Of a DNA stretch of 64,000 bases, positions 5,869-49,423 are shown one piece after another (position 1 is the stretch's first letter; every line of letters starts with the position of its first letter). Source of the stretch: Daphnia pulex (lineage: Eukaryota > Arthropoda > Branchiopoda > Diplostraca > Daphniidae); NCBI RefSeq assembly GCF_021134715.1, contig NC_060021.1, forward strand, positions 9,952,501 to 10,016,500, read 5' to 3'. A program made the translations under genes and the position numbers. The notes beneath the pieces are model-generated. The model was not told where the DNA came from. It saw nothing but the letters and a program-made list of their open reading frames with translations, and did no database searches.

Positions 5869-13504
<7,636 letters not shown>

Positions 13505-16570: not shown

Positions 16571-18129
16571 ATGTTTTTACTTCATCAATTGAATGGAAAA
16601 CGATTATTACTGGTTGGTGAAGGCAACTTTTCCTTTACAATATCATTACTTCTGAAAATCTCTGGAAAAAAATCAACAAGGTTGTCGACATCACCTAGTA
16701 TAATATCATCTTGCTTTCAAAAGTATAGAGATCTTTCTTGCTCTATCAAAGAGAATGCCAGATTTGCGTGTAACCTAGGTAAGATAATTAATGTATAGTA
16801 AGTTGATACAGCTTTTAATGTAAAATTTCGTACACAGGAGCTGAAATTTGGTTTGGCGTGGATGCAACAATTTTGCACCAACACGAGAAATTCAAGAATG
16901 AACTATTTGATTACATTGTATTTAATTTCCCTCATGTTGGAGGAAAAATGAAACTACATCTAAATCGCCTGTTGCTCAAAAATTTCTTCACAAGCGCCAA
17001 CTTATTGTTAAGTGAGGAAGGGAAAATATTAGTTACATTATGCAAAGGACAGAGTGGAACACCATATGACACAGAAAGAAAATATGGAGACACATGGCAA
17101 ATTATTGAAATGGCAACTTATGGAGAACTCATACTTAATGAAGTCCATCCTTTTCGCTCATCTGACTGGCCAGTGTACAATTCAAATGGTTACCGAAGTC
17201 TAGAAAAAGGATTTCAACTGGACGAAGCTCTTACTTTCATCTTTGTAAGGAGGCCCTTAAGTATTCAATGTCAAGCCACAATCAACAAGGAAGAATTCGA
17301 CCATCTACACTGCCCCTATGTTCAAAACCATTTGGACCAACTAGAAAATAATATTTTTGAAGAAATTCCTCTTTTTTATCCCTTCTTCAGAAGAAAAAAG
17401 GATGCATTTAATGTGTGCAGAACTCTGAAAACTGCTTGCCTTTGTCAACACAACGCAACCATCGATTGGTGGGAAATAGTTCTTAGTGAGAAAAAAGACT
17501 ATGATATAATGTGCTGCTTGTTGTGTTATTCATGTTGGCAAATGCACTCTAATGCAAGTGCAAATCCCGTTCAAAAAGTAATTGTAATGAATTGTACAAC
17601 AGAAGTTGATGATTCATTGCTTTCCTTCCTTCGTCGTCGGTGCGCTCAACAAGTAGAAGAAGATTCGTCAATTATTCACTTCGTAGAAACGGGAAATTCT
17701 CTGAAAATCGCCACAGTTTTCGCTAATGAGGACAAGACATTCACCGTAGCTATTTATGTCGATGCGTTTCTTCAGCTAGGAGCAAACTTTGTTGATCCTG
17801 GGCTTTCTTTCCCTTTAAAATCTGATTGGTTGACGTCAAACAAGTCTTTATATCCACCAGTATGTTTTCACGATCTCTGCTTTTGGATATCGGACGATTT
17901 TTCACCAAAACATTTTGCTTGTGCACTATTCTATGTTGCAGGAAAGATTGTTAAGAGTTTTAAACTCATTGATGAGTATTTTTGTTCAATCAAAAACAAA
18001 AAAAGTTTATGTTATCGAATTGAGTATCAATCGCTATTTCAAGCTTTAAGTCCACAAAAAGCCTTTCATGTCCAAACAAATTTAATAAAGCCCTTTTTGG
18101 AAGCCTGCCTTGGTGTAACAGTCCGTTAA
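16571..18129 (+). CDS. FDXACB1-like protein: BMT5-type methyltransferase domain plus FDX-ACB domain
   Basis: Two exons, 16571-16778 and 16838-18129, 499 residues. The start MFLLHQLNGKRLLLVGEGNFSF is the glycine-rich SAM-binding motif of the DUF2431/BMT5 rRNA uridine methyltransferase-like family (LLVGEGNFSF, residues about 12-22), followed by LGAEIWFGVDAT and DYIVFNFPHVGG, also typical of it. Residues about 407-499 (LYPPVCFHDLCFWISDDFSP... KSLCYRIEYQS...LGVTVR) form a ferredoxin-fold anticodon-binding domain like the C-terminus of phenylalanyl-tRNA synthetase. This is the layout of metazoan FDXACB1, whose biochemical role is not settled. The product is shorter than the human protein as I remember it. 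The ATG at 16571 was chosen because the six preceding in-frame codons begin with GTG rather than ATG. Confidence 0.88.
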
Positions 18130-18553
18130 CGCCTTATCCGTTAACATTTCATGTACGATGCAAATCACACCTTTCTTGTAGTGCTGTCCTATGCACGCAT
18201 TACACATACATTGTGTGTCTTTTTTATTTGTTGATAACTTTCAAATTGGTGTGCCCTTTACTGCCGGATCTTCTGTTCGTAATGCACTGTAAATATTTGA
18301 ATTTTGCGCCAGAGATGGCTCCATCCTGTGTTAAAAATTAGAACTGCGCTGCACGACTGGCCCGCTAGTTTCCCTCCGGGCATGGAATGTGTTTTGTTTC
18401 GTCTGCATTGGATTTTTCGTTAGATCTCTCCTGACTAAAAAAAAACAAGTACTTGTTTTCTCGTAGGATTGTTATTTTGGTTGTGTTAATTGTTTTTATA
18501 AACGATGTCGATCGAATTTGAAAAAAAGCAAGACGGTGTTGCATGGTGTGTGA

Positions 18554-19159
18554 CTTGGAAAACGTGAAAACGTGAAAGTTCCTAAGGTAAAAAAATATTG
18601 TAATTCAAGTGTGAATAGTGTTTGCTTCAATGCACTCGAGCAACTGTAGAAAGTGTTTGTCGAGCAAACGAACTGCGATGTCGAATTCTTGTTCTAGGAC
18701 GAGGAGAAAATCGGTGGCCATATTTCCATCTTGGCAGCCAGAAGTTTCGTTTTCTCTGTCATGTTTTACCACAACCTTCAGGAGTCCAAAAAAGTCTTCG
18801 TCCAAGACATCCGGCCACAGATTTTCAAGGAGATGCTACATTACATTTACTCCGGCCAGACTTTGGCTCCTTTGACGGACGCCATCGCTCAACCCCTGTT
18901 CGTAGTTTCAGACAAATACGATATCGAGGACCTGAAGGAGAAGTGCGTCCGTTATCTGCTGAGAAGCGTTCGGAAGAGTAATGCCGTTGACTTGTTGGTC
19001 TGGGCAAATCTTCATTCGGTGGAGAAAATCCAAGAAGCAGCTCTTGACTTTGTGGCTGGAAATTTCAAAACCATTTGTCAATCGAATGAATGGGAGAACC
19101 TGATGAAGAACTATCCGGAGCTTGGATTCCTGGTGACTCGACGTTATGCAGCTGTTTAA
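18554..19159 (+). pseudogene. SPOP/roadkill-like BTB-BACK gene interrupted by two in-frame TAG codons
   Basis: A continuous frame encodes most of a BTB/POZ domain and a BACK-like tail: KVFVEQTNCDVEFLF, stop, DEEKIGGHISILAARS, then SVMFYHNLQESKKVFVQDI, FKEMLHYIYSGQ, VVSDKYDIEDLKEKCVRYLL and WANLHSVEKIQEAALDF. These match arthropod speckle-type POZ proteins, substrate adaptors for cullin-3 ubiquitin ligases. TAG codons sit at 18647-18649 and 18695-18697, in frame with homology on both sides. No MATH domain is visible upstream. The second TAG sits in an acceptor-like context (cttgttctag), so a spliced gene starting at 18698 is possible, but the contiguous CDVEFLF argues against it. The frame after 18698 is intact to the stop at 19157-19159, so decay is recent or the gene still functions in an altered form. 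Confidence 0.7.
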
Positions 19160-24861: not shown

Positions 24862-26823
24862 AACAAAGCTCACTTGCTAGTCTTTAAAAAAAAATCCGGA
24901 AGTATACCGGAAGTAACAACAGCGCCTCAACCATTGAGCTGTCGTCAAATTAAACCACATATTCGTGATCTCCATGAAATTTGGGGTCGATTAGGTGGGA
25001 TTTAAACGAAATCCAAAATTTGGCCAAAATCGAGAATTTTCCTGATGCATAGAATTTATTTTCATGTGATCATGACAACGATCTATCGATAAAATGTGAA
25101 CGATATGATAATACATTTAAGAGAATTAAAACATGGAGAGTGAAAAAATGGAGAGATGGAGTAACTACAATACGCAATTACAGCACATGTCACATATCCA
25201 CTTCGATTACACTTACACGACACGATTTCATTAAGTTCATACAGTTTGAGTACTGGAGCTATCCTTTTGCGGGCCCCAGTAGGCCTTCATCCCCGTCAGC
25301 TGCGTGAAGGTGGTTCGATACCACTCTCATTGACCCTTGAATGGCTGCAAGTCGACTCTTCCGCCTGAAACGGCGCCACGCATTAGGCTGTATGTTGAGG
25401 GAGTTGGCCACCGCGTTGTTGGACGGCATCCAGGAGCCCAACGCGCCGATCACCACCGGAAGCGTCGGTCCAAGGTGACCATATTTGGCCACTTTCCGGT
25501 CGAATCCAGCTTGTAGGGATTCCGGAGCATCAAAAGGTATCGTCACGTCGATGATGAGCTGCGGTGTTGCGGAGGTGATGACGATATCTGGGCGGAGGGT
25601 AGTGTCCGGGAACACCTGGTTGACACGAATCGTGTGACCGGCCCTGCAGATGATTTTGGCCAGTTCCAGCAGAATTGCGTCATGTCGCCGTCCGATTTCC
25701 GGAAGGTTGACCCGGCAATGGCTGGTCACATGTGACGTGGTCTCGGCGTCCGTCCTGCACCTTCGGCACTTCTTGTCAGGAGCCGAAATTCCAGGTGTGC
25801 CGAAAAGAGGTAGGATGGATAGTCGGCTGCGATGGATCAGCTTCCATTCTTCGAAGTTGAGTTTGGTGCGTGATGATGTGAGCCTGGCGATGTCGCTCGA
25901 CGAGTCCAAAAGGAGACCCCTTGCCACTCTTCCCTGGTTTGAGGCGTTGGAGAGCTCGGTTGTCCATCGGCCCCTGATCACCGTCCTCAATCCGCGGACA
26001 GCCTTGCTCGACAGGCAGGAGACGTCATCAGCGATCACTTTTGAAAGGGAACTATCGCTGGATACGTCGATCCTTGCGTGAAGACGCCTGGCTGCTTTTC
26101 GCGTTCGAGTCCATGTGTTCGGACCGCACCCGTAGAACCGAGTGTCGTACAGGCCACCCTGTGTTGAGCCAGACAGGAAATCGGAGAGGGGGAGCGGCAC
26201 ATCCGTGGCTTGGTCAATACCCCTGGAGACGGTTTTCTCAAGTTGGGCTCTGGCAACGAGACGGACAACTTGATCTTTGCTGTCCAACAGCTGAACGGCC
26301 CTGGCAATCGTCCACACATCAGCGTCTTTTTTAAGCTGAGAGGCGCCAAGCCCCCCAGCCCTCCGGTCAGCAAACAAGAAAGCAGTGTGGGCTGTGTGTG
26401 GCACGTATGCCACTTGGCGGAGGAATTCCGCACATCGAGTGTCCAGCTCGTCAAGGAAGCCCCTCTGTACGCGGCCGGTCGCTAGGTGATGCGAGAGAGA
26501 CGGCAGGAGGTGCGCACGAAATACCTCCAGCTTCTGCCAAGGAGCCAGCAAGGAATCCGCAATCTTGACTAGCTTCTCACGGAGGTCTGTGGCTGGTCTG
26601 AAGGTGAGCTTAGTTCCCATAGGGACGCCAAGATAATTTTCAGAACCGGAAGTACGCGTACGTAAAAAACAGAACATGAACTTTAGCACAAATTTTACGA
26701 GGATCACGAATATGTGGTTCTTTTGTGCGTCAGATCAATATTTACTAAACTACTGACAGAAATGAGTAAACCGGAAGTAGAAAAAAAAATCAAATATCGA
26801 AAGTCTAACAAGTGAGCTTTGTT
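24862..26823. mobile_element. Inverted-repeat-bounded segment containing an R2-type retrotransposon end
   Basis: The ends 24862-24885 and 26800-26823 are imperfect inverted repeats of about 24 bp, sharing aacaaagctcacttg in opposite orientation. Just inside both lie ccggaagta motifs (about 24896-24914 and 26771-26779). A similar ccggaagtaagaaaaaaatc occurs alone at about 42310, so the terminal sequence belongs to a dispersed family. The interior holds the R2-like reading frame on the minus strand. The simplest reading is a non-autonomous terminal-inverted-repeat element into which a 5'-truncated retrotransposon inserted. No clear target-site duplication was identified. Confidence 0.5.
25259..26707 (-). 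pseudogene. 5'-truncated R2-clade non-LTR retrotransposon: zinc knuckle and restriction-like endonuclease
   Basis: An open frame of 482 codons. After about 23 residues of probable flanking sequence it reads ENYLGVPMGTKLTFRP..., the thumb region after the reverse transcriptase of R2-type elements. A CCHC knuckle follows, C-X2-C-X8-H-X4-C (CRRC...SHVTSHC, about residues 322-339), then a restriction-like endonuclease with RPDIVI, IDVTIPFD and the downstream FDRKVAKY. No reverse transcriptase catalytic domain is present, so the copy is a dead 5' truncation, as expected from incomplete target-primed reverse transcription. Base composition is more GC-rich than the flanks. The frame has no stop across the retained 1.4 kb, which points to recent insertion. 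The junction with flanking DNA is near 26640. Confidence 0.8.
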
Positions 26824-28552
26824 GGGGGAATAGTTATCGTTAGTTATCACTAAATATTTCAACAAAATAACTGCCAATAAATGTTTAAAAAGATGTGCAA
26901 AGTAACTGAAACTGATTGTTTTGACAGCTACAAATTTTCAAAAAGCCATCTAGTGTTAGAAAAAAGAAACGTCCAAGTAAAACTTTGTTTACGCGCAAGA
27001 AGGGCCTGATTTTGGAATTATTACACAGACAGAGTTTAACACAACTAGATTATTAGTAGATAATCTACGAAAGTAAGTCAATTATCGGGTACCTGAGCAT
27101 AATCCCGCGGCGAGGGACTGCAGGTATGTCACAGCGGACGGAAGTGACAAAGAGATTTTTGAAGAAGCGATTTTGGCGGATGTGGAAAAAAGGCAGCTTC
27201 CTAATTTATGCAGATAGCAAAGTGGCAAGTAGGCAATTGAGTAAGGCATATGACTTCCATCAAGAAGATCTGGTAAATGTACAAGCGCATGGCAAACTCT
27301 AAGTAGCAATGGTATAAGGAAAATGATCTACATTATTTACAAATTTACACAAAATTATCGATAAAAAAATAAAACTCAGAAAAAGAGTTACTTGTAACAG
27401 GAAATGAAATGCTCTTTTTTTTCCTTCTTTTCAGACCTGGAGTGCTACAATTCTGGCTCGGGCATCTCTCAATGTCAATGAGGGGGAAGAATTGAGGTAA
27501 TCACTAGTTGTGATTGTGATGGGTAAATGATTTTCAATCTTTTCATTGGCGTATTCAACTCTTTTGGCCACTCTGTGCAGAACTCTACAAACAAATAATG
27601 TGTAAAGAATCTAATAATAATGTGAAAATAATGAAAATATCTATTATGCTGCAGGGTTCTCACTTTTCAATGCTTGGCATTGTCTCTCAATAGTGGGTGG
27701 TGTCAAGTGAAGAAAGTTGGGGATCTTCATCAACTCTGCATTGGCAAATTTACCAGGTGGTGTTGCCCCCGGAACAACTCAGCTCTGCTGCAAGGGCAGT
27801 TGGACACAAGCTGGATGGAAAGACCTGGCAAATTGACCAAAACCGAGGGCCAGTCTTCATCAGTTGGCGTTTTGATGGAAGATGAACTGCTGCTCTCTTG
27901 TATACTTTGCGTCCGTATGACCTCATATTCAACGAGTTGTTTGGACTCAAATCCAGAGAACGTAATTCTCCTAATAAATTTTAACAGAAACCCGGGTACA
28001 ACACAAGAACACATGCCATTCACGTGTAAATAATCTATTCTAAGCGCCAGTTTAAAAATATGATAAATACCATCCACTTTTTGAATTTCCTAATTTTTGC
28101 GAAATGATGTGGGATAATTAGAAATGGGTCTAATTGACCCAAACTGCTGAAAATTACGGAAAACACGTAGGTAGACAATTGCAGACATTTTATTCGACTT
28201 TTTTTCACTCTGTTTTTAGCAGACTAAAATACAAGTTTCATCGCCATCTATGATTCACATTTACAACTATTGGTTTGGAACAATAAGTCTTCGTTACGCA
28301 AAACCGCCGCCATTTTTTTCGAGCACTGATTGAAAGGGTATCGTTAGATAATCCGTATACGGCGTATTTTCCTTCCTCAAATTTTTCTTCATAAAAAATG
28401 GTATTTCCCGTTTGGATTGTTAGATGTTACTGAATTTTAATTATTTGTGTGTGAATTTGTTATTTGTGTGGTAACCTAGCCTATAATTTCTAGGAAATTC
28501 CAGCTGATCATGTGGCCTGAGGAGAGCCTGAGCATATGTACATTTTGCCAAG
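26824..28552. other. Low-information stretch with a few exon-like fragments
   Basis: Segments near 27128-27215 and 27436-27498 are open and bounded by plausible splice sites on the plus strand. A further open stretch, 27697-27885, has a moderately protein-like composition, as does its complement. I recognise no family and could not build a consistent gene. A gccgccatttttttc motif at about 28310 resembles a YY1-type core promoter element and may belong to the next transcript. Confidence 0.3.
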
Positions 28553-29529
28553 ATGTCGTCTCTTTTTCCTGTACGAACCGGCTGTACGTTTTGTAAGAAA
28601 CACTGCAGAACAAATCAGGTAAATATGTTAAACTTTCTAACTGTGAGACTTAGTTAGTTGGTGACTATGTCTTAACTTGCCCGTTGAAGAACTTTAGTTG
28701 CCTACCTTGAAAAGGCTTGATAGCTGTAGGTTCCTTTGCAAAATTTAATCCGAAGGATTGTGTAGTAACTTCTGTCATTTTTGTTTTGTCATTTGAGACG
28801 CGGTGTCCTTGATAGTAATTAAGTTTTTTTTTTTTTATAAACAGTCTGGTAAAGTCTGAGCTTCGTCATTGCTGCCCAATGTACACATGGATTTTATACA
28901 GCCAGCTGGAAAAGGTTGTTCCTCTTGCTACCTGTACTGCTATGTGTTTCGTCAAATGAAGAAACATGAACAACTGAAGTAATTATTTCAATCAACTTTC
29001 CAATTGTCTGGCTGATTCAAAAAGCTTGCTAACTGACACTGAGAGATTTCATAGTTAAGCTATACTTGAGTCATTTTTGTTATCATTGCGTGATAATTCA
29101 CTGCTTGATAGTATTTGATTTTTTTAAAGCAGGATTAAAATCCAGTTAAAGTCTTAGCTTCTCTTTCTTCTCTGTTGTAGTTTAAATCACACATTTTGTT
29201 TTTGTTTCAACAATAGCCATCAGATATTGTTTTCAGAATATTTAGTTTAACTAAAACTACATAACAAGTCATTAATTTGTCTTTTCAGACAGCAGTTCCA
29301 TTGATTTGATGCTGAAGATAAATTAATTTCATTTCGGTTACAGGTTTATCGTGTATGTTCGCGAAGTTGCTGTCCACTGTGGTACGTTGTTGCAGCCTAT
29401 GCTGGTGATAGATCTTTCTGCATCAAATTCAACTGGCCGTTCCTTGGTGCTGGTGTCGTGTTACCGAATTTGCATTACTATTTTATTAAATTGACATTGT
29501 GTCGATCTAGTTTACCGTTAATATGTTAA
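28553..29529 (+). CDS. Possible small Cys-rich protein, two exons, unrecognised
   Basis: The ATG at 28553 opens a 22-codon exon to 28618 (CAG|GTAAAT) containing GCTFCKKHC. An acceptor at 29342-29343 (ttacag) opens 29344-29529 in the same phase, with CSRSCCPLWYVVAAYAG and a TAA stop, total 83 residues. A possible middle exon after the acceptor at about 28854 would break this frame, so the join may be wrong. A YY1-like element sits about 240 bp upstream. The alternative is a noncoding spliced RNA. Confidence 0.25.
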
Positions 29530-29639
29530 GAAGAAACAAAAAAGAAATATGGGATGTTTATTTCAAACAAATGATAAACATTTTTTCGGTATCGGGAAAG
29601 GAAAGTGGAGGATGTTGAAGGGGGGGATATTTCAAGTTA

Positions 29640-29790
29640 GGATACAAAAGTATTTCATTTATAACCCTATAAACATAACCCTACCAGTTAATCTCCAAAC
29701 CCCACAAACATACACCTACTAACCCTCAAATTTGTACCCTAAACCACATAAACCAATATTCAACCCTAACAATGTGATATCTGTAATAAA
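29640..29790 (+). repeat. Short tract enriched in ACCCTA-like words
   Basis: Several irregular aaccct/accctac words occur between about 29663 and 29770. The spacing is irregular and the motif is not the arthropod telomere unit (TTAGG/CCTAA), so this is only a composition feature. Confidence 0.4.
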
Positions 29791-29902
29791 TAAAAATTTT
29801 AATACATGAAATTGTTTTTTTATTATTATTTTTTTAACTGTACAAAAATTTCAATAAACAGAGCGTCCGGTTCAAGACGGTTTACTACTGCACGAATTTA
29901 AA

Positions 29903-30060
29903 CGCAACCCGCCACCACCGCTGCGGCAATGAGACAAAAAGCGATGGTTTAGTTTTGCGGAAATCTGCGTCAGTCTTTGTAACTTAACTGACGGAGATTT
30001 CCACAAAAATAAGCCATGGCTATTTGTTTCATTGGGTAGTGGATGCATTGTTTTAACTCG
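29903..30060. repeat. Long imperfect inverted repeat (hairpin)
   Basis: The core arms ggaaatctgcgtcagt (29959-29974) and actgacggagatttcc (29987-30002) are complementary with one mismatch around a 12-nt loop. Pairing continues outward with scattered mismatches: ttttg with caaaa, the gcgatggtttagttttg region with caaaaataagccatggc, and the gcaatgagacaaa region with ttgtttcattggg. Arms total about 70 bp each. This is the shape of a foldback element or a hairpin RNA precursor. Confidence 0.7.
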
Positions 30061-30062
30061 CA

Positions 30063-33000
30063 CATGCTGTTGTAGGTTTTGTCTACGGCCCCCAGAGATA
30101 GTATCTGGACCGAGAAGAAGAGAGAAGTACGAGGCAAGTTTTTCCGGGGAGATGTAGTCATACTAGGCTTCCGGGTTAGACTCATGACCCTCCAAAAGTT
30201 TTCATCGGATCATGCGCCTTCCAAGTCCCCGTTCGACCAGAGCCCTCCCCTCCTCCTGGTTTCACAGCGGGTGAGTGACCACCGGCGGGCGTTGGTTAGT
30301 GGTTAGTTAGGGAAACGGGGCCACAGAAAAGAAGGGAGCCCAGATTATGCACTTGTCTACTCTACATCACGAACTTCTTCAGTCGCGTCCAATCATCTCG
30401 ATACGTCCCACAGGCATTACACACATAGATATTGACAAACAACACATTTTCAGGATAACACCAGCACAACAGACAGCATGCAACAGCTTGAACTGGAAAT
30501 GGCTGCAAAAACCACTGCATATTGAACAGCATCATACAGTTGCAAAACACCTTGCGACAGACTCTTCAGAGAAAAAAAATAAAAATTTGTGTGAATGAAG
30601 AGATAGAACTTCAGATGTAAAAGAGATCAGATAAAGCAAGTCAAGAATCTCAATCAAATTACCATTACAATAAGTCTTTGTCCAATTGCAGTTGGGTTAT
30701 GCTTCCACACTTCAGGATAACACTATAGACTGATAGGTAGATGACTATGACACTATGAATGTAGGTAGATAACAAGATGCAGCAGCTGCAGCTCAACTTG
30801 ATCACACCTTTCACCAGTTGGTTGCAACAAAACCATTAGCACGAAAGACAGCAATGAAGTTCAGATTTTGCGTGTTCTCAAATTCTTCGATAGTAAAGCA
30901 AAGGGATCTCCTCCCTAAACAATGCGCATCATTATTGAAGGGAAATTGATCAAAAAAATTGCTTTAATTTAACATTCAGTAAATTTAGACATTCAAACTA
31001 GAATTACCTTTATAATCTCTTGACTGAAAATGAAGAACGACGCCCGTAAATCCGTAATGCATTTGGAATACATTTTCACTCAGTGTCTGAGAAACAAATG
31101 GCGGAATTTAGTCCCACTCACGAAGTGCCACCCGGGGTCTGGAGAATATGAGTTTAGATTTTTAGCAGTACGAGCATACGAACATTTGGCTTTTAAAATT
31201 TACTTGTCATACGAATACAAGCCCTAAAATACTACCCAACTGGTAAGTAAAATAAAATAGGTTTTGTTGAGCCCTTGCCCTTGATAATTGATATGATATT
31301 TAAATGAAAAAAAAAAGAAAGATAAAGCGAAAATTACACTTAGTTCATCGTTACATTTTCACACAAAAATAATACGGGATCTTAAGACTAAAAAGTGAAT
31401 GAAAAAGGCAGTCGGCTATGCAAGTGTTCAACGCAGGTGCGAATCACATACCAACCATTTTTAGTTAGCAATACAAACGGAACACAAGTTCCTCTTCTTG
31501 TTGTCCACTTTCATTAACCGACAGGGAAAGAGCAACTAGTCTATTCTTCTTTCTGGGGTTTGAGCTAGGATTTATCTTTAGACATGGGAACAAAGTTCAA
31601 AACAATCCACCTAATGATGATTGCTAAACCATATACCTTTCAGAAAGGTTTTTTAACTAATTATACCAAATACCATCTTACATTTCAGAGTAATAAAAAG
31701 AAACATTGGTCAAGAACTACCTTGCAAATAGAAATTCCATGGTTAAGAAATACACAGCTAGCATTATTGGACTGAGCCATCCATCGTTTTTGTCCAGAGC
31801 ACTCAGGGCACACAAACTTCAGCTGCAGTTATCTGAAAACATTTAGTCAAGAGTGCAAGATGAATCATTAGCCCAATGTTTTGTTATCTGTTGATTTAAA
31901 AAGTAAAGTCATTTAAAGTTTATCTAAGCCAACATTAAGAATCAAGACCAATAACATCTCTCATGAAGAACTCGTGCTTTACATCAGAGATAACTGGCAT
32001 TACATTACATTGAATCTAAAGATATTTTTCAAGGTAGTCAAAAGGTGTTATGGCAAAATGCTATAACCCGAAATACAGCTACTCTTATACTAATAGTGCT
32101 AAACACCATGACAAATAAAACAAATTACCAAAAAGCCGAGAATGGTAATTGTCATCATCATCACAGGAACCAATGCCAGACGGACACCATTTTGAATGAT
32201 TTGCACTAAAATTCAGGGGGAGTGGGCAGGGTTGCATGAATATGAACAAGGTCGATTTTAAAGAATTATTTTTAAAATCATTAATTTTCGGTTAATCAAT
32301 TGGAATAATTGTATCAAATTAACAAGAATTTGAGGCCACAACCACAGAAGTTCTGGATAACAAGAGAGGGGGAATTGACAACAAGCTGTTGAACACCCTG
32401 GAATAGAATGTTGAGAGTTTTTAATTAACCTTTTCTGTTTTAAGAAAGTGAAGCGCAGTTCATTACAAAAGAGAAGAGTCAGATAATTGAAAACGCATGG
32501 CTGGCCACAACGACAAAGTGCGTAGTCTCTCTTTAATGCCAAACAGACTATAGTTCCTCTGGTGTTTCTGCTTCAAATTTTGATAGATTTTGTTTGACCA
32601 TTCAAATCACGAAATAATAGGAAAGTCCTAGTCTATTATATCAAGATTCAAATTGTCAACTATACGAATGAAAGGTGTTGACAGTTGAGTGGAAGCGTAG
32701 TGAGGGAATCGGAATGAAGAGAGATAAACTAGAGTAGTAAAACAACGGATATTAAAACTTACGGTACAAGTTAGTAGCGCTTTTAGATATTAATATATCA
32801 AGACTGTTAAAATATAGGTACTTCATAAACCTATCATAGCATAACTTTATTATTCTCTGTGAAGCTGAGCGGCAATGAAATGATTCCGTATTCCTGTATA
32901 TACGCCATTGCCATTGCGTGTGAGACTTGGTGGGACTTGATGGCAGTGACAGAGCGTATGCATGTGTCAAACATGTGCATTCGTTTGTAAGATCACTGAG

Positions 33001-35203: not shown

Positions 35204-35879
35204 ATAAGACTATCACAGCCCATCGAAAAAAGTAAGCGCAGTAGTCGGTATTGCCTCAATGTTCCCTCTGGTTAATCAAACAACGAACATAAACGCCGAT
35301 GAAACTTGAATGGCCTTGCCAGAATTTACACCAAGAGGAAAAAAGTGGAATGTTTACCAATTTCCACTTTTAATAACGGCTTTTATATTTATAATGATAA
35401 GGTAAAACCAAACTACAATAACAACTACCTAGATGGTAACCAATTATCCGATTATCTGTAATAAAACTAAACCAGACTAAAGTACTCAACAAACTAAACA
35501 AATCTTGAACTAAAACTAAACTAAAGCTAAATTAAAACTAAACTAAAACACTTATCCACCGTCTAGAACACTAAAAAACTAAACTAAAACTAAACTTATA
35601 TTAAACTAAACTATAACTAAACTAAAACTAGACCAGCAAAACTAAATTTTTACCTTGGCTAACCCAAAGAGTGATGCATATGGAAAATAGGATTATGGTA
35701 TTGGAGTGACTACTATTTCTAGACCATAATGATATACCATAATTGTGAAGGTAAGGGTATATTGGATAGGGAATAAACAACAAATCCATACTTACACACA
35801 CACATTTCACACGATAAAACACTCACACAACCTTAGGCAAGAAATAGTTATACCGTACCATTAAAAGATCTTCGAAGTC
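35204..35879. repeat. CTAAA-rich low-complexity tract and spacer
   Basis: About 35470-35640 consists largely of irregular ctaaa/actaaa repeats. The rest is AT-rich spacer leading to the GCC-rich array. At about 35840-35880, on the minus strand, the last array module runs into unique sequence with several open frames and a gtacgg donor-like site. Confidence 0.6.
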
Positions 35880-38800
35880 CTTTGCTGCGGCGGGGACGAT
35901 CTTGAAGTGGCGGCGGCGATCCTCCTTGGTCCTGGGTCCCATCTAGAGTACATAAAAAAAGTATGATTAGACACTTAGAATAAAACAATATACCTGAGAT
36001 CCATTGGCGAAGGTCCTAGCGTGCGACGATCTTGAAGCGGCTCCGGTGGTGGCGGCGGCGGTGGCGGCGATCCTCTCCAGTCTAAAGAAAATCCAAAAAC
36101 ATTAGTAAAAGAAGTCTAAGGCATTCAGAATCAAATGAAATGTACCTTCGACCCGTGGGCCAGGGTCCTATCTTGAAGCGACGATCTTGTAGTGGCGGCG
36201 GCGATCCTCCTTGGTCCTGGGTCCCATCTAGAGTACATAAAAAAAGTATGGTTAGACACTTAGAATTAAAAAATATACCTGAGATCCATTGGCGAAGGTC
36301 CTAGCGTGCGGCGATCTTGAAGCGGCTCCGGTGGTGGCGGCGGCGGCGGCGATCCTCTCCAGTCTAAAGAAAATCCAAAAACATTAGTAAAAGAAGTCTA
36401 AGGCATTCAGAATCAAATGAAATGTACCTTCGACCCGTGGGCCAGGGTCCTATCTTGAAGCGACGATCTTGTAGTGGCGGCGGCGATCCTCCTTGGTCCT
36501 GGGTCCCATCTAGAGTACATAAAAAAAGTATGGTTAGACACTTAGAATTAAAAAATATACCTGAGATCCATTGGCGAAGGTCCTAGCGTGCGGCGATCTT
36601 GAAGCGGCTCCGGTGGTGGCGGCGGCGGCGGCGATCCTCTCCAGTCTAAAGAAAATCCAAAAACATTAGTAAAAGAAGTCTAAGGCATTCAGAATCAAAT
36701 GAAATGTACCTTCGACCCGTGGGCCAGGGTCCTATCTTGAAGCGACGATCTTGTAGTGGCGGCGGCGATCCTCCTTGGTCCTGGGTCCCATCTAGAGTAC
36801 ATAAAAAAAGTATGATTAGACACTTAGAATAAAACAATATACCTGAGATCCATTGGCGAAGGTCCTAGCGTGCGACGATCTTGAAGCGGCTCCGGTGGTG
36901 GCGGCGGCGGTGGCGGCGGCGGTGGCGGCGATCCTCTCCAGTCTAAAGAAAATCCAAAAACATTAGTAAAAGAAGTCTAAGGCATTCAGAATCAAATGAA
37001 ATGTACCTTCGACCCGTGGGCCAGGGTCCTATCTTGAAGCGACGATCTTGTAGTGGCGACGGCGATCCTCCTTGGTCCTGGGTCCCATCTAGAGTACATA
37101 AAAAAAGTATGATTAGACACTTAGAATAAAACAATATACCTGAGATCCATTGGCGAAGGTCCTAGCGTGCGACGATCTTGAAGCGGCTCCGGTGGTGGCG
37201 GCGGCGGTGGCGGCGATCCTCTCCAGTCTAAAGAAAATCCAAAAACATTAGTAAAAGAAGTCTAAGGCATTCAGAATCAAATGAAATGTACCTTCGACCC
37301 GTGGGCCAGGGTCCTATCTTGAAGCGACGATCTTGTAGTGGCGGCGGCGATCCTCCTTGGTCCTGGGTCCCATCTAGAGTACATAAAAAAAGTATGATTA
37401 GACACTTAGAATTAAAAAATATACCTGAGATCCATTGGCGAAGGTCCTAGCGTGCGGCGATCTTGAAGCGGCTCCGGTGGTGGCGGCGGCGGCGGCGATC
37501 CTCTCCAGTCTAAAGAAAATCCAAAAACATTAGTAAAAGAAGTCTAAGGCATTCAGAATCAAATGAAATGTACCTTCGACCCGTGGGCCAGGGTCCTATC
37601 TTGAAGCGACGATCTTGTAGTGGCGGCGGCGATCCTCCTTGGTCCTGGGTCCCATCTAGAGTACATAAAAAAAGTATGATTAGACACTTAGAATAAAACA
37701 ATATACCTGAGATCCATTGGCGAAGGTCCTAGCGTGCGACGATCTTGAAGCGGCTCCGGTGGTGGCGGCGGCGGTGGCGGCGGCGATCCTCTCCAGTCTA
37801 AAGAAAATCCAAAAACATTAGTAAAAGAAGTCTAAGGCATTCAGAATCAAATGAAATGTACCTTCGACCCGTGGGCCAGGGTCCTATCTTGAAGCGACGA
37901 TCTTGTAGTGGCGGCGGCGATCCTCCTTGGTCCTGGGTCCCATCTAGAGTACATAAAAAAAGTATGATTAGACACTTAGAATTAAAAAATATACCTGAGA
38001 TCCATTGGCGAAGGTCCTAGCGTGCGGCGATCTTGAAGCGGCTCGGTGGTGGCGGCGGCGGCGGCGATCCTCTCCAGTCTAAAGAAAATCCAAAAACATT
38101 AGTAAAAGAAGTCTAAGGCATTCAGAATCAAATGAAATGTACCTTCGACCCGTGGGCCAGGGTCCTATCTTGAAGCGACGATCTTGTAGTGGCGGCGGCG
38201 ATCCTCCTTGGTCCTGGGTCTCATCTAGAGTACATAAAAAAAAGTATGGTTAGACACTTAGAATTAAAAAATATACCTGAGATCCATTGGCGAAGGTCCT
38301 AGCGTGCGGCGATCTTGAAGCGGCTCCGGTGGTGGCGGCGGCGGTGGCGGCGGCGATCCTCTCCAGTCTAAAGAAAATCCAAAAACATTAGTAAAAGAAG
38401 TCTAAGGCATTCAGAATCAAATGAAATGTACCTTCGACCCGTGGGCCAGGGTCCTATCTTGAAGCGACGATCTTGTAGTGGCGGCGGCGATCCTCCTTGG
38501 TCCTGGGTCCCATCTAGAGTACATAAAAAAAGTATGATTAGACACTTAGAATTAAAAAATATACCTGAGATCCATTGGCGAAGGTCCTAGCGTGCGGCGA
38601 TCTTGAAGCGGCTCCGGTGGTGGCGGCGGCGGTGGCGGCGGCGATCCTCTCCAGTCTAAAGAAAATCCAAAAACATTAGTAAAAGAAGTCTAAGGCATTC
38701 AGAATCAAATGAAATGTACCTTCGACCCGTGGGCCAGGGTCCTATCTTGAAGCGACGATCTTGTAGTGGCGGCGGCGATCCTCCTTGGTCCTGGGTCCCA

Positions 38801-38902
38801 TCTAGAGTACATAAAAAAAGTATGGTTAGACACTTAGAATCAAAAAATATACCTGAGATCCATTGGCGAAGGTCCTAGCGTGCGGCGATCTTGAAGCGGC
38901 TC

Positions 38903-38934
<32 letters not shown>

Positions 38935-39385
38935 ATCCTCTCCAGTCTAAAGAAAATCCAAAAACATTAGTAAAAGAAGTCTAAGGCATTCAGAATCAAA
39001 TGAAATGTACCTTCGACCCGTGGGCCAGGGTCCTATCTTGAAGCGACGATCTTGTAGTGGCGGCGGCGATCCTCCTTGGTCCTGGGTCCCATCTAGAGTA
39101 CATAAAAAAAGTATGGTTAGACACTTAGAATTAAAAAATATACCTGAGATCCATTGGCGAAGGTCCTAGCGTGCGGCGATCTTGAAGCGTCTCCGGTGGT
39201 GGCGGTGGCGGCTGCGGCGGCGGCGAGGGCTGCGACGAGGGCGACGGCGATCCTCTCCAGTCTAAAGAAAATCCAAAAACATTAATAAAAGAAGTTGAAG
39301 GCATTTAAAATCGAATGAAATGTACCTTTGACCCGTGGGCCAGGGTCCTATCTTGTAGTGGCGGCGGCGATCCTCTCCGGTCCAT
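35880..39385 (-). repeat. Tandem array of twelve ~285-bp units, each with two exon-like modules
   Basis: A landmark (plus-strand cctgagatccattgg) recurs at 35993, 36278, 36560, 36842, 37139, 37424, 37706, 37994, 38276, 38564, 38852 and 39143. Spacings are 282-297 bp and always a multiple of three, because only the GCC tract changes length. Read on the minus strand, each unit holds module a (for example 36081-35994, after ttttctttag and before GTATAT) and module b (for example 36227-36146, 82 bp, after gtactctag and before GTACAT). They are separated by 64- and 51-bp intron-like spacers. Modules a and b are homologous (both contain GGATCGCCGCCGCC and a TTCAAGAT core), so the unit is itself an old duplication. 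Each module is 1 mod 3 in length, so joining them rotates the frame. Confidence 0.85.
39144..39385 (-). CDS. Possible first coding exons leading into the module array
   Basis: At the 5' (minus-strand) end of the array a b-type module is altered to begin GATCATGGACCGG, giving an ATG at 39385. Its exon runs to 39326 and encodes MDRRGSPPPLQDRTLAHGSK. Joining to module a (39261-39144) in phase 0 continues TGEDRRRPRRSPRRRR..., an Arg-rich stretch, to a TAG after 51 residues in total. The stop lies well before the exon end, so the transcript would be a nonsense-decay target or noncoding unless another start sets a different phase. Evidence is splice-site quality and the unique ATG only. Confidence 0.3.
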
Positions 39386-42300
39386 GATCCTAATTACATC
39401 AACGACAAATGATGGATAAACTTTATAGTTTTTTTAAACCATAATCAATTAAGCAAAAATAGAATATATACAGCTAAAACATTGAATTTAGATTGCAATT
39501 TCCTGAAAGAAAAAAGGTTATTAGTTGACACGTTAGGGTTGGGGATTGCTAAAGACGAATTTTCTACACCACAGAGCTACCACAGTAAATTGGCAACTAA
39601 CTCTATCGTGAACTTAAACCTTAACTTAGCTTAACCTACAATAGCCTTAGCTTAGCTTAACGGCTTAACTTACAATATCGTTAACTTATGCTTAACTTTA
39701 ACCTTAATTAGATTGGCTTACTCTAATTATAAGTAGCTACTGGTGTGGACAACAAATAAGGTGAATCAATCTACGAACACTACAAAGTGCAGATGCAATT
39801 GTGCTGATATAGTGATGAGATAGTAAAACGAAATCTACGACACAAAACACTACAGATAAACCACGACAAATTGTGTAGGCAATGCATAAAACGAAATTAA
39901 TCCAAGTGCAAAGGTGTGATCCGTGAAGATGCAAAACTACAGCAGCAAACTAGAGACAAGTGCACACCGTGCGAATACGTGGACTACTGAGCATTTTTTG
40001 GTCTCTGGAATGCCCATCGGCACGCCGATTTACCCCAGCAAAACCCCTGGAGGTATTTTTCAGTATTCGAGGTCAGATGAAAATGGAGCAATTGAAGGGA
40101 GGAGTAACCTTTATTGACCCAATTTGAACTCAACATCGTTTGGTAGCGAACAGCCTTGATACAGTTATTTTGTCTCTCCCCCCTTTAATCCTTGTGATGA
40201 CGCGGGCTTGACAACATCATATCTATTTGAACTCAACATCGTTTGGTAGCGAATAGCCTTGATACAGTTATTTTGTCTCTCCTCCCCTTTAATCCTTGTG
40301 ATGACGCTGGCTTGACAACATCATCTCACATTTCTGCAAGTCAACTCATGTAACTAAGAGTAAGTGTTAATTTCAAATGTTTCAAATGTGCTTCATGCAT
40401 GCTGAGGGAGGGGGGGAATCTAATGCCAAAATGTTGACCTAATAAGTTATTTGAAGATAACGTAATTAATACTTAACTGGCTTATTCATTATCACAAAAG
40501 ATAAAGATAGTTTTATTAGCTTAAAAATTTGCACAAATAATATTACCTAGCTAGAATACAGTCAGTCATGCTCCAACAATTTCACGAATGGCGTCACGAA
40601 TGAAAGGCTTGACAATATTGACATCTGAATAAAGAGAAAAATGAAAGACATTTTTGTTTTGTTTTTGAAATGTGTCCACGGTTCCATGTGATTACTATTC
40701 TTTAAATGAGCCTCGCGGAATTTTTAATCTTGAACGAAGAATAACTTCGTAATCCAAGGACCATTCGGCAGCTGCTGTTGAATTGAAGATCACTTCTAAA
40801 GACCGGACCGAATATAATATAAAACAAGTTTGAAAGAAATTTTGAATGTGATGGCTGTTTCATCTTCTTCTTGGTTTACCTCAACTTCCAACTAATAATT
40901 TTAACTATAAACCCTAATACCAATGTGATTATTGGTACTTGGGCTGAAGTCGTTTTTTAACTTCGTAGAGTCCTAATCTCAAAGTGCTGCTTGTACTGGT
41001 CATCATGTTGGTCGTAGAAAGAGTGGCAGCTTTAAAAACAATGTAAATAAGAATTTAGGTCTAACAAATATTTCAAGCATTGCATAAATTGGCTTACTAA
41101 TTTCTTTTGAAAAAATTTGAAGATTTGAGTCAAAAGTTTCCTCTTGCAAGCTGAACTATCGTTGATAGTGTACACTTCTCCTGCATAAGATGGCACTCAG
41201 ACCTACAAGAAAGGTAGCTTAAAGTGAATTCATGAAAATTATGATAAGCAGTAAAATAGTGTGACCTCTTTTGTTAGAATAAAACGTATGCAGCATTCAG
41301 GACTTCCAATAGTTGGCCCAATTCAACATCCTGTTTTGAAATATTTCCATGCATGTGTCCATTTCATATTTAATGCCCCTTGCTATCTGTATCTGTTAAA
41401 ATAAGTGAAAAATTTAGTGAGAGTTAAGGGAAACAGAAAATTCGGCAATAATTATGATATAGCTCATTGCTAAACTTTGTACGAAGCATTGCATGTGCAC
41501 AGAAAAACATTGATTCTATCATGCAGATATTGGTGATTGAAAAGGGTAATAGTTGCAACAGGCCATCAGTTTCTAACACAGAAACTTTTTAAAAAAATTT
41601 GTTGATGCTTTATGCAGCTTTGCGCCCCAAAGGCCAAACCAACAGAATTTAGTCTTAAACAATAAAATTACTGTTTGCCTAGTTTCTTTCCATTTCACGT
41701 AGTCTTCAAAACAAAATTCTATAAGATAATGATGAGAAGATCAAAGTAATCTCAGTTATATTTAAATATATAATTTATTTTCTTCGGTGTTCGGTCTAAC
41801 ATCTCGCCACGTGGAAATAAGCCAGACGACAACAAGCAATCATGCATGATTCGATAGAGCAGTTCAAAATTCCTCTACTAGGTGGCCATAAAGAATAATT
41901 ATTGCGGATTTTTCAAAATGGTGTTAATTAATCGTTATTTCATAATGACAAAATCAGGCAACTTCATTTAAGTTTAAAATTTAGCCGTCAGCAAGTAAAA
42001 ATTCCCCCCAAAATAAATAAAATACACACTTGTTTATAAACTTGTTTATTTACAATTAACTAAGAAGAAGAGGGCTATTTTCTGGGCATTTCCACAGATT
42101 CAGAATTACTAGCAAATACCAACGGCCGGGCTGGTGAAAATCACAAATGTAACCAAATAAAGGAAAGTGTGTACTGTTTACTGTGTAGGGAAAGTACTGG
42201 CACTACCAGAGGCCCGGAGGGAACTGGGAACCTGGTGACGTAAGTCGCATAGCACAATGCACAATAACCTAGATCAATAGTTATCATGCTAGAGACTCAG

Positions 42301-42549: not shown

Positions 42550-45500
42550 TTCCATTCCATTCCATTCCAGATTCCATTCCATTCCAGATTCCTTCCAGAT
42601 TCCATTCCATTCCACATTCCATTCCATTCCATTCCACATTCCATTCATTCCACATTCCATTCCAGATTCCATTCCATTCCAGATTCCATTCCTTTCCAGA
42701 TTCCATTCCATTCCAGATTCCATTCCAGATTCCATTCCAGATTCCATTCCAGATTCCATTCCATTCCAGATTCCATTCCATTCCAGATTCCTTCCAGATT
42801 CCATTCCATTCCAGATTCCATTCAATTCCAAATTCCATTCCATTCCAGATTCCATTCCAGATTCCATTGCATTCCAGATTCCATTGCATTCCAGATTCCA
42901 TTCCATTCCAGATTCCATTCCAGATTCCATTCCATTCCAGATTCCATTCCATTCCAGATTCCATTCCATTCCAGATTCCTTCCAGATTCCATTCCATTCC
43001 AGATTCCATTCCATTCCAGATTCCATTCAATTCCAAATTCCATTCCATTCCAGATTCCATTCCAGATTCCATTCCATTCCAGATTCCATTGCATTCCAGA
43101 TTCCATTCCATTCCACATTCCATTCCATTCCAGATTCCATTCCATTCCAGATTCCATTCCATTCCACATTCCATTCCACATTCCATTCCATTCCACATTC
43201 CATTCCAGATTCCATTCCATTCCAGATTCCATTCCATTCCAGATTCCATTCCATTCCAGAATCCCTTCCATTCCACATTCCATTCCATTCCAGATTCCAT
43301 TCCATTCCAGATTCCATTCCATTCCAGATTCCATTCCATTCCAGATTCCATTCCATTCCATTCCATTCCACATTACATTCCATTCCATTCCATTCCACAT
43401 TCCATTCCAGATTCCATTCCATTCCACATTCCATTCCAGATTCCATTCCATTCCAGATTCCATTCCATTCCAGATTCCATTCCATTCCACATTCCATTCC
43501 ATTCCACATTCCATTCCATTCCACATTCCATTCCATTCCACATTCCATTCCATTCCACATTCCATTCCATTCCACATTCCATTCCACATTCCATTCCACA
43601 TTCCACATTCCATTCCATTCCACATTCCATTCCATTCCAGATTCCATTCCATTCCAGATTCCATTCCATTCCAGATTCCATTCCAGATTCCATTCCATTC
43701 CAGATTCCATTCCATTCCAGATTCCATTCCATTCCAGATTCCATTCCATTCCAGATTCCATTCCAGATTCCATTCCATTCCAGATTCCATTCCAGATTCC
43801 ATTCCATTCCAGATTCCATTCCATTCCAGATTCCATTCCATTCCAGAATCCATTCCATTCCACATTCCATTCCATTCCAGATTCCATTCCATTCCAGATT
43901 CCATTCCGTTCCAGATTCCATTCCATTCCAGATTCCATTCCATTCCATTCCATTCCACATTCCATTCCATTCCATTCCATTCCACATTCCATTCCACATT
44001 CCATTCCATTCCAAATTCCATTCCATTCCAGATTCCATTCCATTTCAGATTCCATTCCATTCCAGATTCCATTCCATTCCAGATTCCATTCCATTCCATT
44101 CCAGATTCCATTCCATTCCAGATTCCATTCCATTCCACATTCCATTCCATTCTATTCCAGATTCCATTCCATTCCAGATTCCATTCCATTCCAGATTCCA
44201 TTCCATTCCAGATTCCATTCCAGATTCCATTCCATTCCAGATTCCATTCCATTCCAGATTCCATTCCATTCCAGATTCCATTCCATTCCAGATTCCATTC
44301 CATTCCAGATTCCATTCCATTCCAGATTCCATTCCATTCCAGATTCCATTCCATTCCAGATTCCATTCCAGATTCCATTCCATTCCAGATTCCATTCCAT
44401 TCCAGATTCCATTCCATTCCATTCCACATTCCATTCCATTCCATTCCACATTCCATTCCACATTCCATTCCATTCCATTCCATTCCACATTCCATTCCAT
44501 GCCAGATTCTATTCCATTCCAGATTCCATTCCATTCCAGATTCCATTCCATTCCAGATTCCATTCCATTCCAGATTCCATTCCATTCCAGATTCCATTCC
44601 ATTCCAGATTCCATTCCATTCCAGATTCCATTCCATTCCAGATTCCATTCCATTCCAGATTCCATTCCATTCCATTCCAGATTCCATTCCATTCCATTCC
44701 AGATTCCATTCCACATTGCATTCCATTCCAGATTCCATTCCATTCCAGATTCCATTCCAGATTCCATTCCATTCCAGATTCCATTCCATTCCAGATTCCA
44801 TTCCAGATTCCATTCCATTCCAGATTCCATTCCATTCCACATTCCATTCCAGATTCCATTCCATTCCAGATTCCATTCCATTCCACATTCCATTCCACAT
44901 TCCATTCCAGATTCCATTCCATTCCAGATTCCATTCCACATTCCATTCCATTCCAGATTCCATTCCATTCCACATTCCATTCCATTCCAGATTCCATTCC
45001 ATTCCACATTGCATTCCATTCCAGATTCCATTCCATTCCAGATTCCATTCCATTCCAGATTCATTCCGTTCCAGATTCCATTCCATTCCAGATTCCATTC
45101 CATTCCAGATTCCATTCCTTTCCAGATTCCATTCCATTCCAGATTCCATTCCAGATTCCATTCCAGATTCCATTCCAGATTCCATTCCATTCCAGATTCC
45201 ATTCCAGATTCCATTCCAGATTCCTTCCAGATTCCATTCCATTCCAGATTCCATTCCATTCCACATTCCATTCAATTCCAAATTCCATTCCATTCCAGAT
45301 TCCATTCCAGATTCCATTCCATTCCACATTCCATTCCATTCCAGATTCCATTCCATTCCAGATTCCATTCCATTCCAGATTCCATTCCATTCCAGATTCC
45401 ATTCCATTCCATTCCAGATTCCATTCCATTCCAGATTCCATTCCATTCCAGATTCCATTCCATTCCAGATTCCTTCCAGATTCCATTCCATTCCAGATTC

Positions 45501-46046
45501 CTTCCAGATTCCATTCCATTCCAGATTCCATTCCATTCCAGATTCCATTCCATTCCAGATTCCATTCCGTTCCAGATTCCATTCCATTCCAGATTCCATT
45601 CCATTCCATTCCACATTCCATTCCATTCCATTCCATTCCATTCCACATTCCATTCCACATTCCATTCCATTCCACATTCCATTCCACATTCCATTCCATG
45701 CCAGATTCCATTCCATGCCAGATTCCATTCCATGCCAGATTCCATTCCATTCCAGATTCCATTCCATTCCAGATTCCATTCCATTCCAGATTCCATTCCA
45801 TTCCAGATTCCATTCCATTCCAGATTCCATTCCATTCCAGATTCCATTCCATTCCAGATTCCATTCCATTCCAGATTCCATTCCATTCCACATTCCATTC
45901 CATTCCACATTCCATTCCATTCCACATTCCATTCCATTCCACATTCCATTCCATTCCACATTCCATTCCATTCCATTCCACATTCCATTCCATTCCACAT
46001 TCCATTCCATTCCACATTCCATTCCATTCCAGATTCTATTCCATTG
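42550..46046. repeat. 3.5-kb satellite of (ATTCC)n with AG/AC spacers
   Basis: The basic word is the pentamer ATTCC (GGAAT on the other strand). The commonest unit is 17 bp, three pentamers plus AG; variants have two pentamers (12 bp), four pentamers, or AC in place of AG. Stretches rich in AC variants cluster at about 43370-43620, 44410-44490, 45610-45700 and 45890-46030, hinting at higher-order organisation. Neither strand produces stop codons from these words, so frames of more than 1000 codons run across it on both strands; these are by-products of composition, not genes. The flanks are unrelated AT-rich DNA. Confidence 0.97.
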
Positions 46047-47868: not shown

Positions 47869-49423
47869 ATGAAAAGGAGTATGTGCATGGTTTTGCCAGA
47901 TCTACCCAAGCCACTTCCAATCAGAAAAAACAAATCACAGTCCACAAAGGTATATACTTTAGTCTATTTTTACTGTAGTTAAATGGAAGCCTTTCTTTTA
48001 GCAAAGGAAACTTCAACCAGGAATTCTGAAAGAATGCAATAATCAGCAGTTATTGATTAACAATGAAACCGTTTTAGGTCAAACCAATAATAGACTTTCG
48101 TAGTATCAAAGTCAGAGGTGGTAAAGGTGGAGATGGCTGTATTTCTCTAAGGAGACTTTGTAAAAACCCTCTTGGTGGACCTGATGGAGGAGATGGAGGA
48201 AGTGGAGGCCATGTCACATTTAAAGTAAATCTTATTTTAAATTGGATTATTTAACATTGGACATGACCCATTCATTTTGGATAAGGTAGCTATATGGTAC
48301 CTAATTATCTGTTTTGTCAATTCAACAGGCCACAAACAACAAAACTTCTCTAGAACACATACCTTCAATAATAAAAGCTGATGATGGTGAAAAAGGAATC
48401 AACAGAGATTGCCATGGTAGGAATGCTGAACATCTTGTCTTAGAAGTAAGTTTTGTATTGAATAAAATGCTAAATTTGGTGCAGTTTAAATTCATTTTGT
48501 TTCTTTATTTTTTAACTAAATGTTTCACTTTCAGGTACCAGTAGGAACTATGTTTAAAAGTTCAAATGGTCAGATTTTGGCTGACTTGAATGAGGATGGA
48601 GCAGTGTTCATAGCTGCAAGAGGAGGGGCTGGAGGAAAAGGGAATCACTACTTTGCCACTGACGTAAACCAGGCACCCGAAATTGCCGAATACGGTGCAG
48701 ATGGTGAAGAATTGAGTTATACTGTAGAAATACGAACAATTGCTCATGTTGGGCTGGTAATAAACTATTATTATTTAAAGGATTAAAGCAAATTGTCGCA
48801 TTGATTTGAAATAATTATCCTTTGAAGATCGGACTTCCAAATGCTGGGAAATCTACTTTCCTACGGTCTATCTCTCGTGCTAGACCTAAGGTAGCTCCAT
48901 ATCCATTCACCACATTGCAGCCACACGTAGGAGTTGTAAAATACGACGACCTCCAACAAGTGACTGGTATCTGAGATCAACTTTTTTTTTATATTGATTT
49001 TTTACAATTTTATTTGTGTCTCAAATAGTTGCAGACATTCCGGGATTGATCGCCGGGGCGCACCGCAATCGAGGATTGGGAATTGCATTTCTGCGTCATA
49101 TTGAACGGTGCCTTTGTTTGCTATATGTCGTGGATGCCTCGTTGCCTGAACCATGGCAGCAACTTGAAGTCCTCCGATATGAACTGGAACAGTACGATCC
49201 ACATCTACTCGAAAGACCCTCTGGTGTTTTAGCCAACAAGATGGACTTGCCCCAATCAACCATAAACCTCAAAGAACTAAAGCAGTATGTTGAAAAAATT
49301 AATCTACCTCTCTTCCCTGTTTCAGCCATGAACAATGTAGGAGTTCTTCCTATTCTGCATTTTGTTCGACAGTTGTATGATAGTTCTACTACTAAAGAGA
49401 ATTTTGATGAAAAAGAACAATAA
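47869..49423 (+). CDS. mtg2: Mitochondrial ribosome-associated GTPase 2 (Obg family), six exons
   Basis: Obg-type GTPase that acts in assembly of the large mitochondrial ribosomal subunit. Exons: 47869-47949, 48078-48224, 48329-48445, 48535-48756, 48828-48966, 49029-49423; phases agree; 366 residues. A basic N-terminus ([17 protein letters not shown]...) fits a mitochondrial leader. The glycine-rich Obg fold ([15 protein letters not shown]... [14 protein letters not shown]) covers about 28-180. G domain: G1 GLPNAGKST (about 191-199), G2 in PYPFTTL, G3 DIPG (about 238-241) with [10 protein letters not shown]4 NKMD (about 305-308), G5 SAM (about 334-336). No C-terminal TGS domain is present, as in GTPBP5. 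The start is the first ATG in the frame used by exon 2; translation might start further upstream in a preceding exon. AATAAA overlaps the stop codon (49419-49424). Confidence 0.93.

Follow-up and report, generated by a model that had tools for sequence, protein, structure and literature searches.

Tandem arrays of exons are familiar from protein genes such as nebulin, titin with its PEVK exons and Dscam, and long noncoding RNAs such as XIST and FIRRE are built from repeats. Further repeat-built long noncoding RNAs include PNCTR (PMC6224606) and Gomafu/MIAT (PMC3116199), which are reported to carry many copies of a short motif that would gather binding proteins. Introns can also multiply. Intron gain is described through tandem duplication (PMC4974935) and, as a recent process, in Daphnia (PMC4202315), and introners provide many near-identical introns in one genome (PMC9860276). 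D. pulex is known for active intron gain. Here we describe a locus in Daphnia pulex in which a short unit of two exon-like modules and two intron-like spacers is repeated in tandem. A preliminary description of the sequence knew of no described system that matches it, and our own search of the open-licence literature gave, among the matches listed, no description of such exon-intron arrays.

Results

The window analysed here is a 64,000-nucleotide stretch of chromosome C5 (9,952,501–10,016,500). Its minus strand carries, at 35,861–39,389, twelve tandem pairs in the order exon A, intron A, exon B, intron B, followed by a terminal A-type exon. The pairs themselves occupy 35,943–39,389 and all 24 of their introns have GT and AG. 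In the first pair exon A lies at 39,326–39,389, intron A at 39,262–39,325, exon B at 39,144–39,261 and intron B at 39,093–39,143. Exon A is 64 nt long in this first pair and 82 nt in the next 11; exon B has 118 nt at the start of the array and 84–100 nt in the remaining 11 pairs. All 12 copies of intron A measure 64 nt, and intron B is 51 nt in 11 copies and 52 nt in one. The twelve minus-strand units of two homologous modules noticed in the preliminary description, with their 64- and 51-bp spacers ending in a pyrimidine-tract AG, are confirmed. Homology of the modules is visible in GGATCGCCGCC and CTTCAAGAT, which are common to exons A and B. Both introns run from GT to AG and contain a pyrimidine tract and a branch-like CTAAC, CTAAT or TTAAT. 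Their donors are GTACAT and GTATAT, without the G at +5 of the usual donor consensus. Tandem Repeats Finder describes the window array as 11.6 copies of period 282 with a 96% match. When a simple intron detector was run on the repeat unit, on 20,000 dinucleotide shuffles of it and on the remaining 54.8 kb of the window, it called two introns on the sense strand of the real unit and none on the opposite strand. Taking the better strand of each shuffle, 2 of the 20,000 contained two introns. Elsewhere in the window the detector called eight, equivalent to 0.04 per 285 bp.

The preliminary description proposed a search for other arrays, and this was carried out over 133,188,837 bases comprising 12 chromosome-size contigs and one contig of 15,333 bases, the last of which contains an invertebrate mitochondrial COX1 frame. 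The query was the first 601 bases, and repeat counts per locus in this search are lower bounds. The window array proved to be one of 11, the others lying on C9 (two), C11 (two), C7 (three), C4, C6 and C12. C7:4.015 Mb and C9:8.091 Mb each hold a remnant. When the 11 arrays were scanned with a profile for each intron, 127 copies of intron A and 127 of intron B were counted, 127 pairs in all, with copy number differing by locus from 2 to 24: 12 pairs in the window, 14 and 18 in C9a and C9b, 13 and 9 in C11a and C11b, 10, 8 and 9 in C7a, C7b and C7c, 24 in C4, 8 in C6 and 2 in C12. Of these 254 introns, 253 retain both GT and AG. The single broken copy belongs to C7b, where intron A in the last pair has AC instead of AG.

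The relic at C7:4.015 Mb has a simpler organisation, with two tandem copies of an exon that has an A-like start and a B-like end, each accompanied by intron B. One of its introns has GG for AG and the similarity of the other stops before the acceptor, so the relic tells little in this respect. Its simpler form suggests an array that began as a single exon-intron unit, with A and B arising by later divergence among the copies. This decayed copy, with its tandem pair of one exon type and intron B, lends support to the earlier proposal that the array is a satellite derived from one exon-intron pair. All 11 arrays lie 0.94–2.32 Mb from a chromosome end, a range so narrow that P is 5e-6 under uniform placement. 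The test was chosen post hoc, and we give the finding little weight as matches of a neighbouring repeat are often near ends too. This repeat, at 27,100–30,357 of the window, has dozens of genome copies, many of them near chromosome ends.

All 11 loci have common flanks, upstream splice signals and a terminal exon, from which a transcription unit can be predicted. A 26-bp promoter-like element, GCTCAGTAGTCCACGTATTCGCACGG, lies on the minus strand at 39,967–39,992 and is identical at all 12 of its genome places, namely the 11 array loci and the C9:8.091 Mb relative, where the surrounding sequence is 88% identical; no other place in the genome lies within three mismatches. The element includes the arthropod initiator motif TCAGT, and the predicted transcription start is the A at 39,988. 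In the first 40 columns from this predicted start, 37 of 39 are invariant among the 11 loci. Predicted exon 1 (39,722–39,988) ends in a GTAAGC donor at 11/11 loci. Predicted intron 1 (39,503–39,721) has GT and AG at all 11, with a pyrimidine tract before the acceptor, and predicted intron 2 (39,390–39,471) has GTATAT and AG at all 11, with a weak pyrimidine tract that makes it the least certain among the introns. Placed between them is a predicted exon 2 of 31 nt (39,472–39,502), which may alternatively be continuous with the first array exon. At the other end the terminal A-type exon carries GACTTCGAAGATCTT in 11/11 loci and was followed from 35,942 as far as 35,861. This limit is the position at which a TAA stands in frame in the other arrays, 10 of the 11 loci; in the window it is replaced by TTA.

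Downstream of the array a flank shared by the family (35,206–35,860, minus strand) has matches in the ten other array loci, beginning at 35,206 in C9a, C11a, C11b, C7a, C7b, C7c and C12, at 35,215 in C9b, at 35,404 in C4 and at 35,508 in C6. The upstream flank (40,000–41,929, minus strand) has a recurrent boundary near 41,929, and its part at 40,743–41,929 recurs blockwise at older loci that have no array. Within it a block at 41,816–41,929 (CACCTAGTAGAGGAATTT...) is found at about 20 genome places and contains GCCACCTAGTAG, which looks similar to the CTCF motif. Farther upstream, 42,554–46,045 is a satellite of about 208 copies of 17-bp units (ATTCCATTCCATTCCAG) with long stop-free frames on both strands; close to the C7a array there is a related stretch with 89% identity. 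On the other side of the array, a 482-aa frame at 25,259–26,707 (minus strand) has no Pfam match and looks to us like the end of an R2-type reverse transcriptase. Frames at 5,869–9,315, 16,858–19,159 and 49,016–49,423 show Pfam matches to DUF4819, BMT5-like and FDX-ACB, BTB and BACK, and 50S-binding GTPase; the DUF4819 frame looks to us like capicua. Rfam gave no gathering match over the window, and a sub-threshold microRNA match at 29,951–30,010, scoring 24.8 bits where the cut-off is 100, was judged to be chance.

Constraint was assessed on 109 aligned units, taken between successive anchors less than 400 bp apart, with three longer intervals and the end units left out. Across these units every splice dinucleotide position is invariant, while 43 of the 107 other positions in the introns vary (p 0.024), although units within a locus are homogenised and so non-independent, and such counts overstate the evidence. 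When only locus consensuses are compared, 0 of 8 splice positions and 20 of 107 other intron positions vary, which is not significant (p 0.35). Divergence between loci, calculated as the mean difference with one random unit per locus, is 0.009 (0.9%) in exon A and 0.105 (10.5%) in intron A; it is 0.034 in exon B outside the GCC tract and 0.040 in intron B. In the single-copy flanks 295 windows, each of 82 columns, were compared; none is as low as exon A, the lowest being 0.023 (2.3%). Variable sites of the locus consensuses tell the same of exon A, at 2/82 against 15/64 for intron A (p 1e-4). Exon A is thus exceptionally conserved and is the best-conserved stretch of the family. Exon B has no such advantage over intron B (7/63 against 5/51 sites, p 1.0). 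Within the unit, exon A and the splice dinucleotides look constrained, but exon B shows no difference from intron B and the splice positions none on locus consensuses (p 0.35). Outside the array, divergence between loci is 0.044 for predicted exon 1, 0.047 for intron 1 and 0.075 for exon 2. As exon 1 is close to intron 1 and exon 2 does no better, no exon constraint is apparent beyond the array and the first 40 bases.

The coding capacity of the family was read from transcripts spliced in silico at 10 loci, all but C12. These transcripts are approximate, the patterns having missed some introns, so that exons of 224–237 are listed, one of them in the window. The modules had been described as all 1 mod 3 in length. 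In the family alignment this holds for 101 of 109 copies of exon A and 96 of 109 of exon B, and fails for 8 and 13 respectively, the B exceptions being the entire C11a array (12), in which exon B is 0 mod 3 throughout, and one copy in the window. The related claim that all unit spacings are multiples of three did not stand, being true of 9 of 11 spacings in the window and of only 4 of 12 in C11a. With most exons 1 mod 3, full splicing takes the frame through phases 0, 2, 1 and 0, and TAG is present in the phase-0 copies of both A and B, so that one frame of each has a stop. Since nearly all exons share this length class and one frame of each is stopped, a fully spliced RNA would have no room for a long protein at most loci. 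In the approximate transcripts the window has no frame longer than 56 aa, C11a reaches 255 aa and C4 143 aa, and two of the longest translations have no Pfam family match. No long frame is common to all 10 loci read, and the frame is not kept through the array.

The first array exon retains its ATG in 11/11 loci. Translation from this ATG yields Arg-rich peptides of 39–53 aa that resemble one another at 7 of the 10 loci read, with the pattern MDR(R/G)GSPPPLQDRTLAHGSKTGEDRR..FKI(A/V)AR, and C11a, C4 and C6 give different ones; the C6 value is unsafe because the intron pattern missed the first intron of that locus. These same three loci have a first array exon that exceeds that of the other 8 by 14 nt, and the difference shifts the frame.

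Spliced retrocopies, which would have been evidence of splicing, were searched as A-B, B-A and A-A junction patterns with up to three mismatches and were found at no place for any of the three, and viral contigs scanned with an exon 21-mer gave no match. Two related stretches at C9:8.085 and 8.091 Mb stand behind the same type of acceptor; one of them comes after a lone A-like exon in the old array relative. A 58-residue frame across the predicted intron at C9:8.091 Mb matches itself and, in part, C9:8.0855 Mb (75%, residues 15–50). By eye the two stretches differ by a two-base indel, and the idea of a coding parent gene was for this reason abandoned.

Discussion

The explanation that we favour, and consider on balance probable from the sequence comparisons, is a family of spliced RNA genes, dispersed over 11 loci, in which an internal exon pair has expanded while splicing was kept. 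RNA polymerase II would start near 39,988 and proceed leftward, and removal of the introns would leave an RNA of up to dozens of near-identical C-rich mini-exons. Splicing of the array is proposed on account of the conservation of its splice sites. The array would have enlarged by unequal exchange from a simpler exon-intron unit, of which the relic at C7:4.015 Mb may be a representative. Given the rotating frame, and a frame that is not kept at all loci, the family is probably non-coding; as no long protein can be encoded at most loci, the product would act as RNA. Of the three readings offered in the preliminary description, a spliced noncoding RNA and a satellite grown from an exon-intron pair both agree with these data and are compatible with each other, the former being supported by the 253 intact introns and by the 26-mer identical at 12/12 places. 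The third, variable peptides produced by exon skipping, has no direct support. The similar peptides at 7 of 10 loci leave it conceivable, and the 14-nt length difference that separates the first exon of 8 loci from that of the other 3, like the 0 mod 3 exon B of C11a, speaks against it. Against the favoured explanation itself stand the equal conservation of exon B and intron B, the non-significant comparison of splice positions on locus consensuses, the homogenisation of units within a locus, the similar divergence of exon 1, intron 1 and exon 2, the array donors that lack a G at +5, and the failure to find a spliced retrocopy.

How such an RNA might act is a matter for rather doubtful guesses. 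One is that it forms a repeated binding platform for an RNA-binding protein. In an RNA fold of one sequence, a spliced A+B unit was less structured than 200 of 200 shuffles (z 3.15), a result on which a structured-RNA reading was dropped. An unstructured unit would suit protein binding and may equally follow from the C-rich runs. A second possibility, held just as tentatively, is that the satellite unit is itself the exon-intron pair, that changes in copy number add or remove whole introns, and that dense repeated splicing is what is selected. Dense splicing of one transcript, with up to 48 array introns, might then load splicing or SR-type proteins on unstructured C-rich RNA.

A family of spliced RNA genes has to be weighed against a silent minisatellite, in which amplification and homogenisation of part of a gene that was once spliced would have left splice sites that look intact only through the youth and correction of the arrays. 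Near-identical tandem units of period 282 with a 96% match and variable copy number do describe the window array, and strong concerted evolution within loci of 2–24 copies, the similar evolution of exon B and intron B and the consensus comparison of splice sites (p 0.35) are all consistent with such an origin. We nevertheless regard it as unlikely. The introns have had time to diverge, with intron A at 0.105 and 43 of 115 intron positions variable, yet 253 of 254 are intact; exon A falls below all 295 flank windows in divergence; and the 26-mer accompanies every one of the 11 arrays. These same 11 loci are dispersed over 7 of the 12 chromosomes with several kb of flank in common, and other repeats lie nearby, which could point to a mobile element carrying the array. 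Such an element seems to us very improbable, as the copies compared pairwise have no common ends and the flank similarity stops at different places pair by pair. A search for an inverted partner to the boundary near 41,929 gave nothing consistent (five weak matches in 4 of 18 sequences), and outside the array and the satellite 27.0–42.5 kb contains three stop-to-stop frames of at least 100 aa (132, 119 and 104 aa).

A gene for a short peptide is a different kind of alternative, in which the first array ATG, with its good start context, gives the Arg-rich peptide, or chosen exons reach the terminal KDFEDL stop. Its appeal lies in the ATG kept at all 11 loci, the similar peptides of 39–53 aa at 7 of the 10 loci read and the terminal TAA that closes the frame in 10 of 11. 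Against this, the first exon is longer and the frame different in C11a, C4 and C6 (the C6 value being unsafe), every exon B of C11a is 0 mod 3, two to four ATGs lie upstream in predicted exons 1 and 2, conservation extends beyond the terminal stop, and the two long translations are without a Pfam family match. We consider a short-peptide gene distinctly unlikely.

If the favoured family of spliced RNA genes is transcribed, one RNA would contain up to 48 near-identical short array introns, and 11 natural variants of 2 to 24 pairs would be available within one genome. They would offer a system for studying how the spliceosome pairs identical neighbouring sites, how tandem duplication multiplies introns in a species with known intron gain, and whether selection on a noncoding gene can act on its splicing as such.

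Compared with known systems, the array has in common with nebulin, titin PEVK and Dscam a run of homologous exons with introns between them. Those genes keep the frame or choose one exon, whereas the array exons are mostly 1 mod 3 and rotate the frame, and unlike in those genes no long protein is kept between loci. Its predicted RNA is like the repeat-built long noncoding RNAs in carrying many copies of a short motif. Their repeats, however, lie inside exons or are simple, whereas each array unit comprises two exons and two introns and the array exists in 11 dispersed copies. The nearest known processes are intron gain by tandem duplication (PMC4974935), which likewise multiplies introns, and recent intron gain in Daphnia (PMC4202315). 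Those are single new introns in coding genes, whereas copying of whole pairs has given up to 48 array introns per locus here. With introners the array shares the presence of many near-identical introns within a genome; introners enter many genes (PMC9860276), whereas the array introns multiply in place along with their exons.
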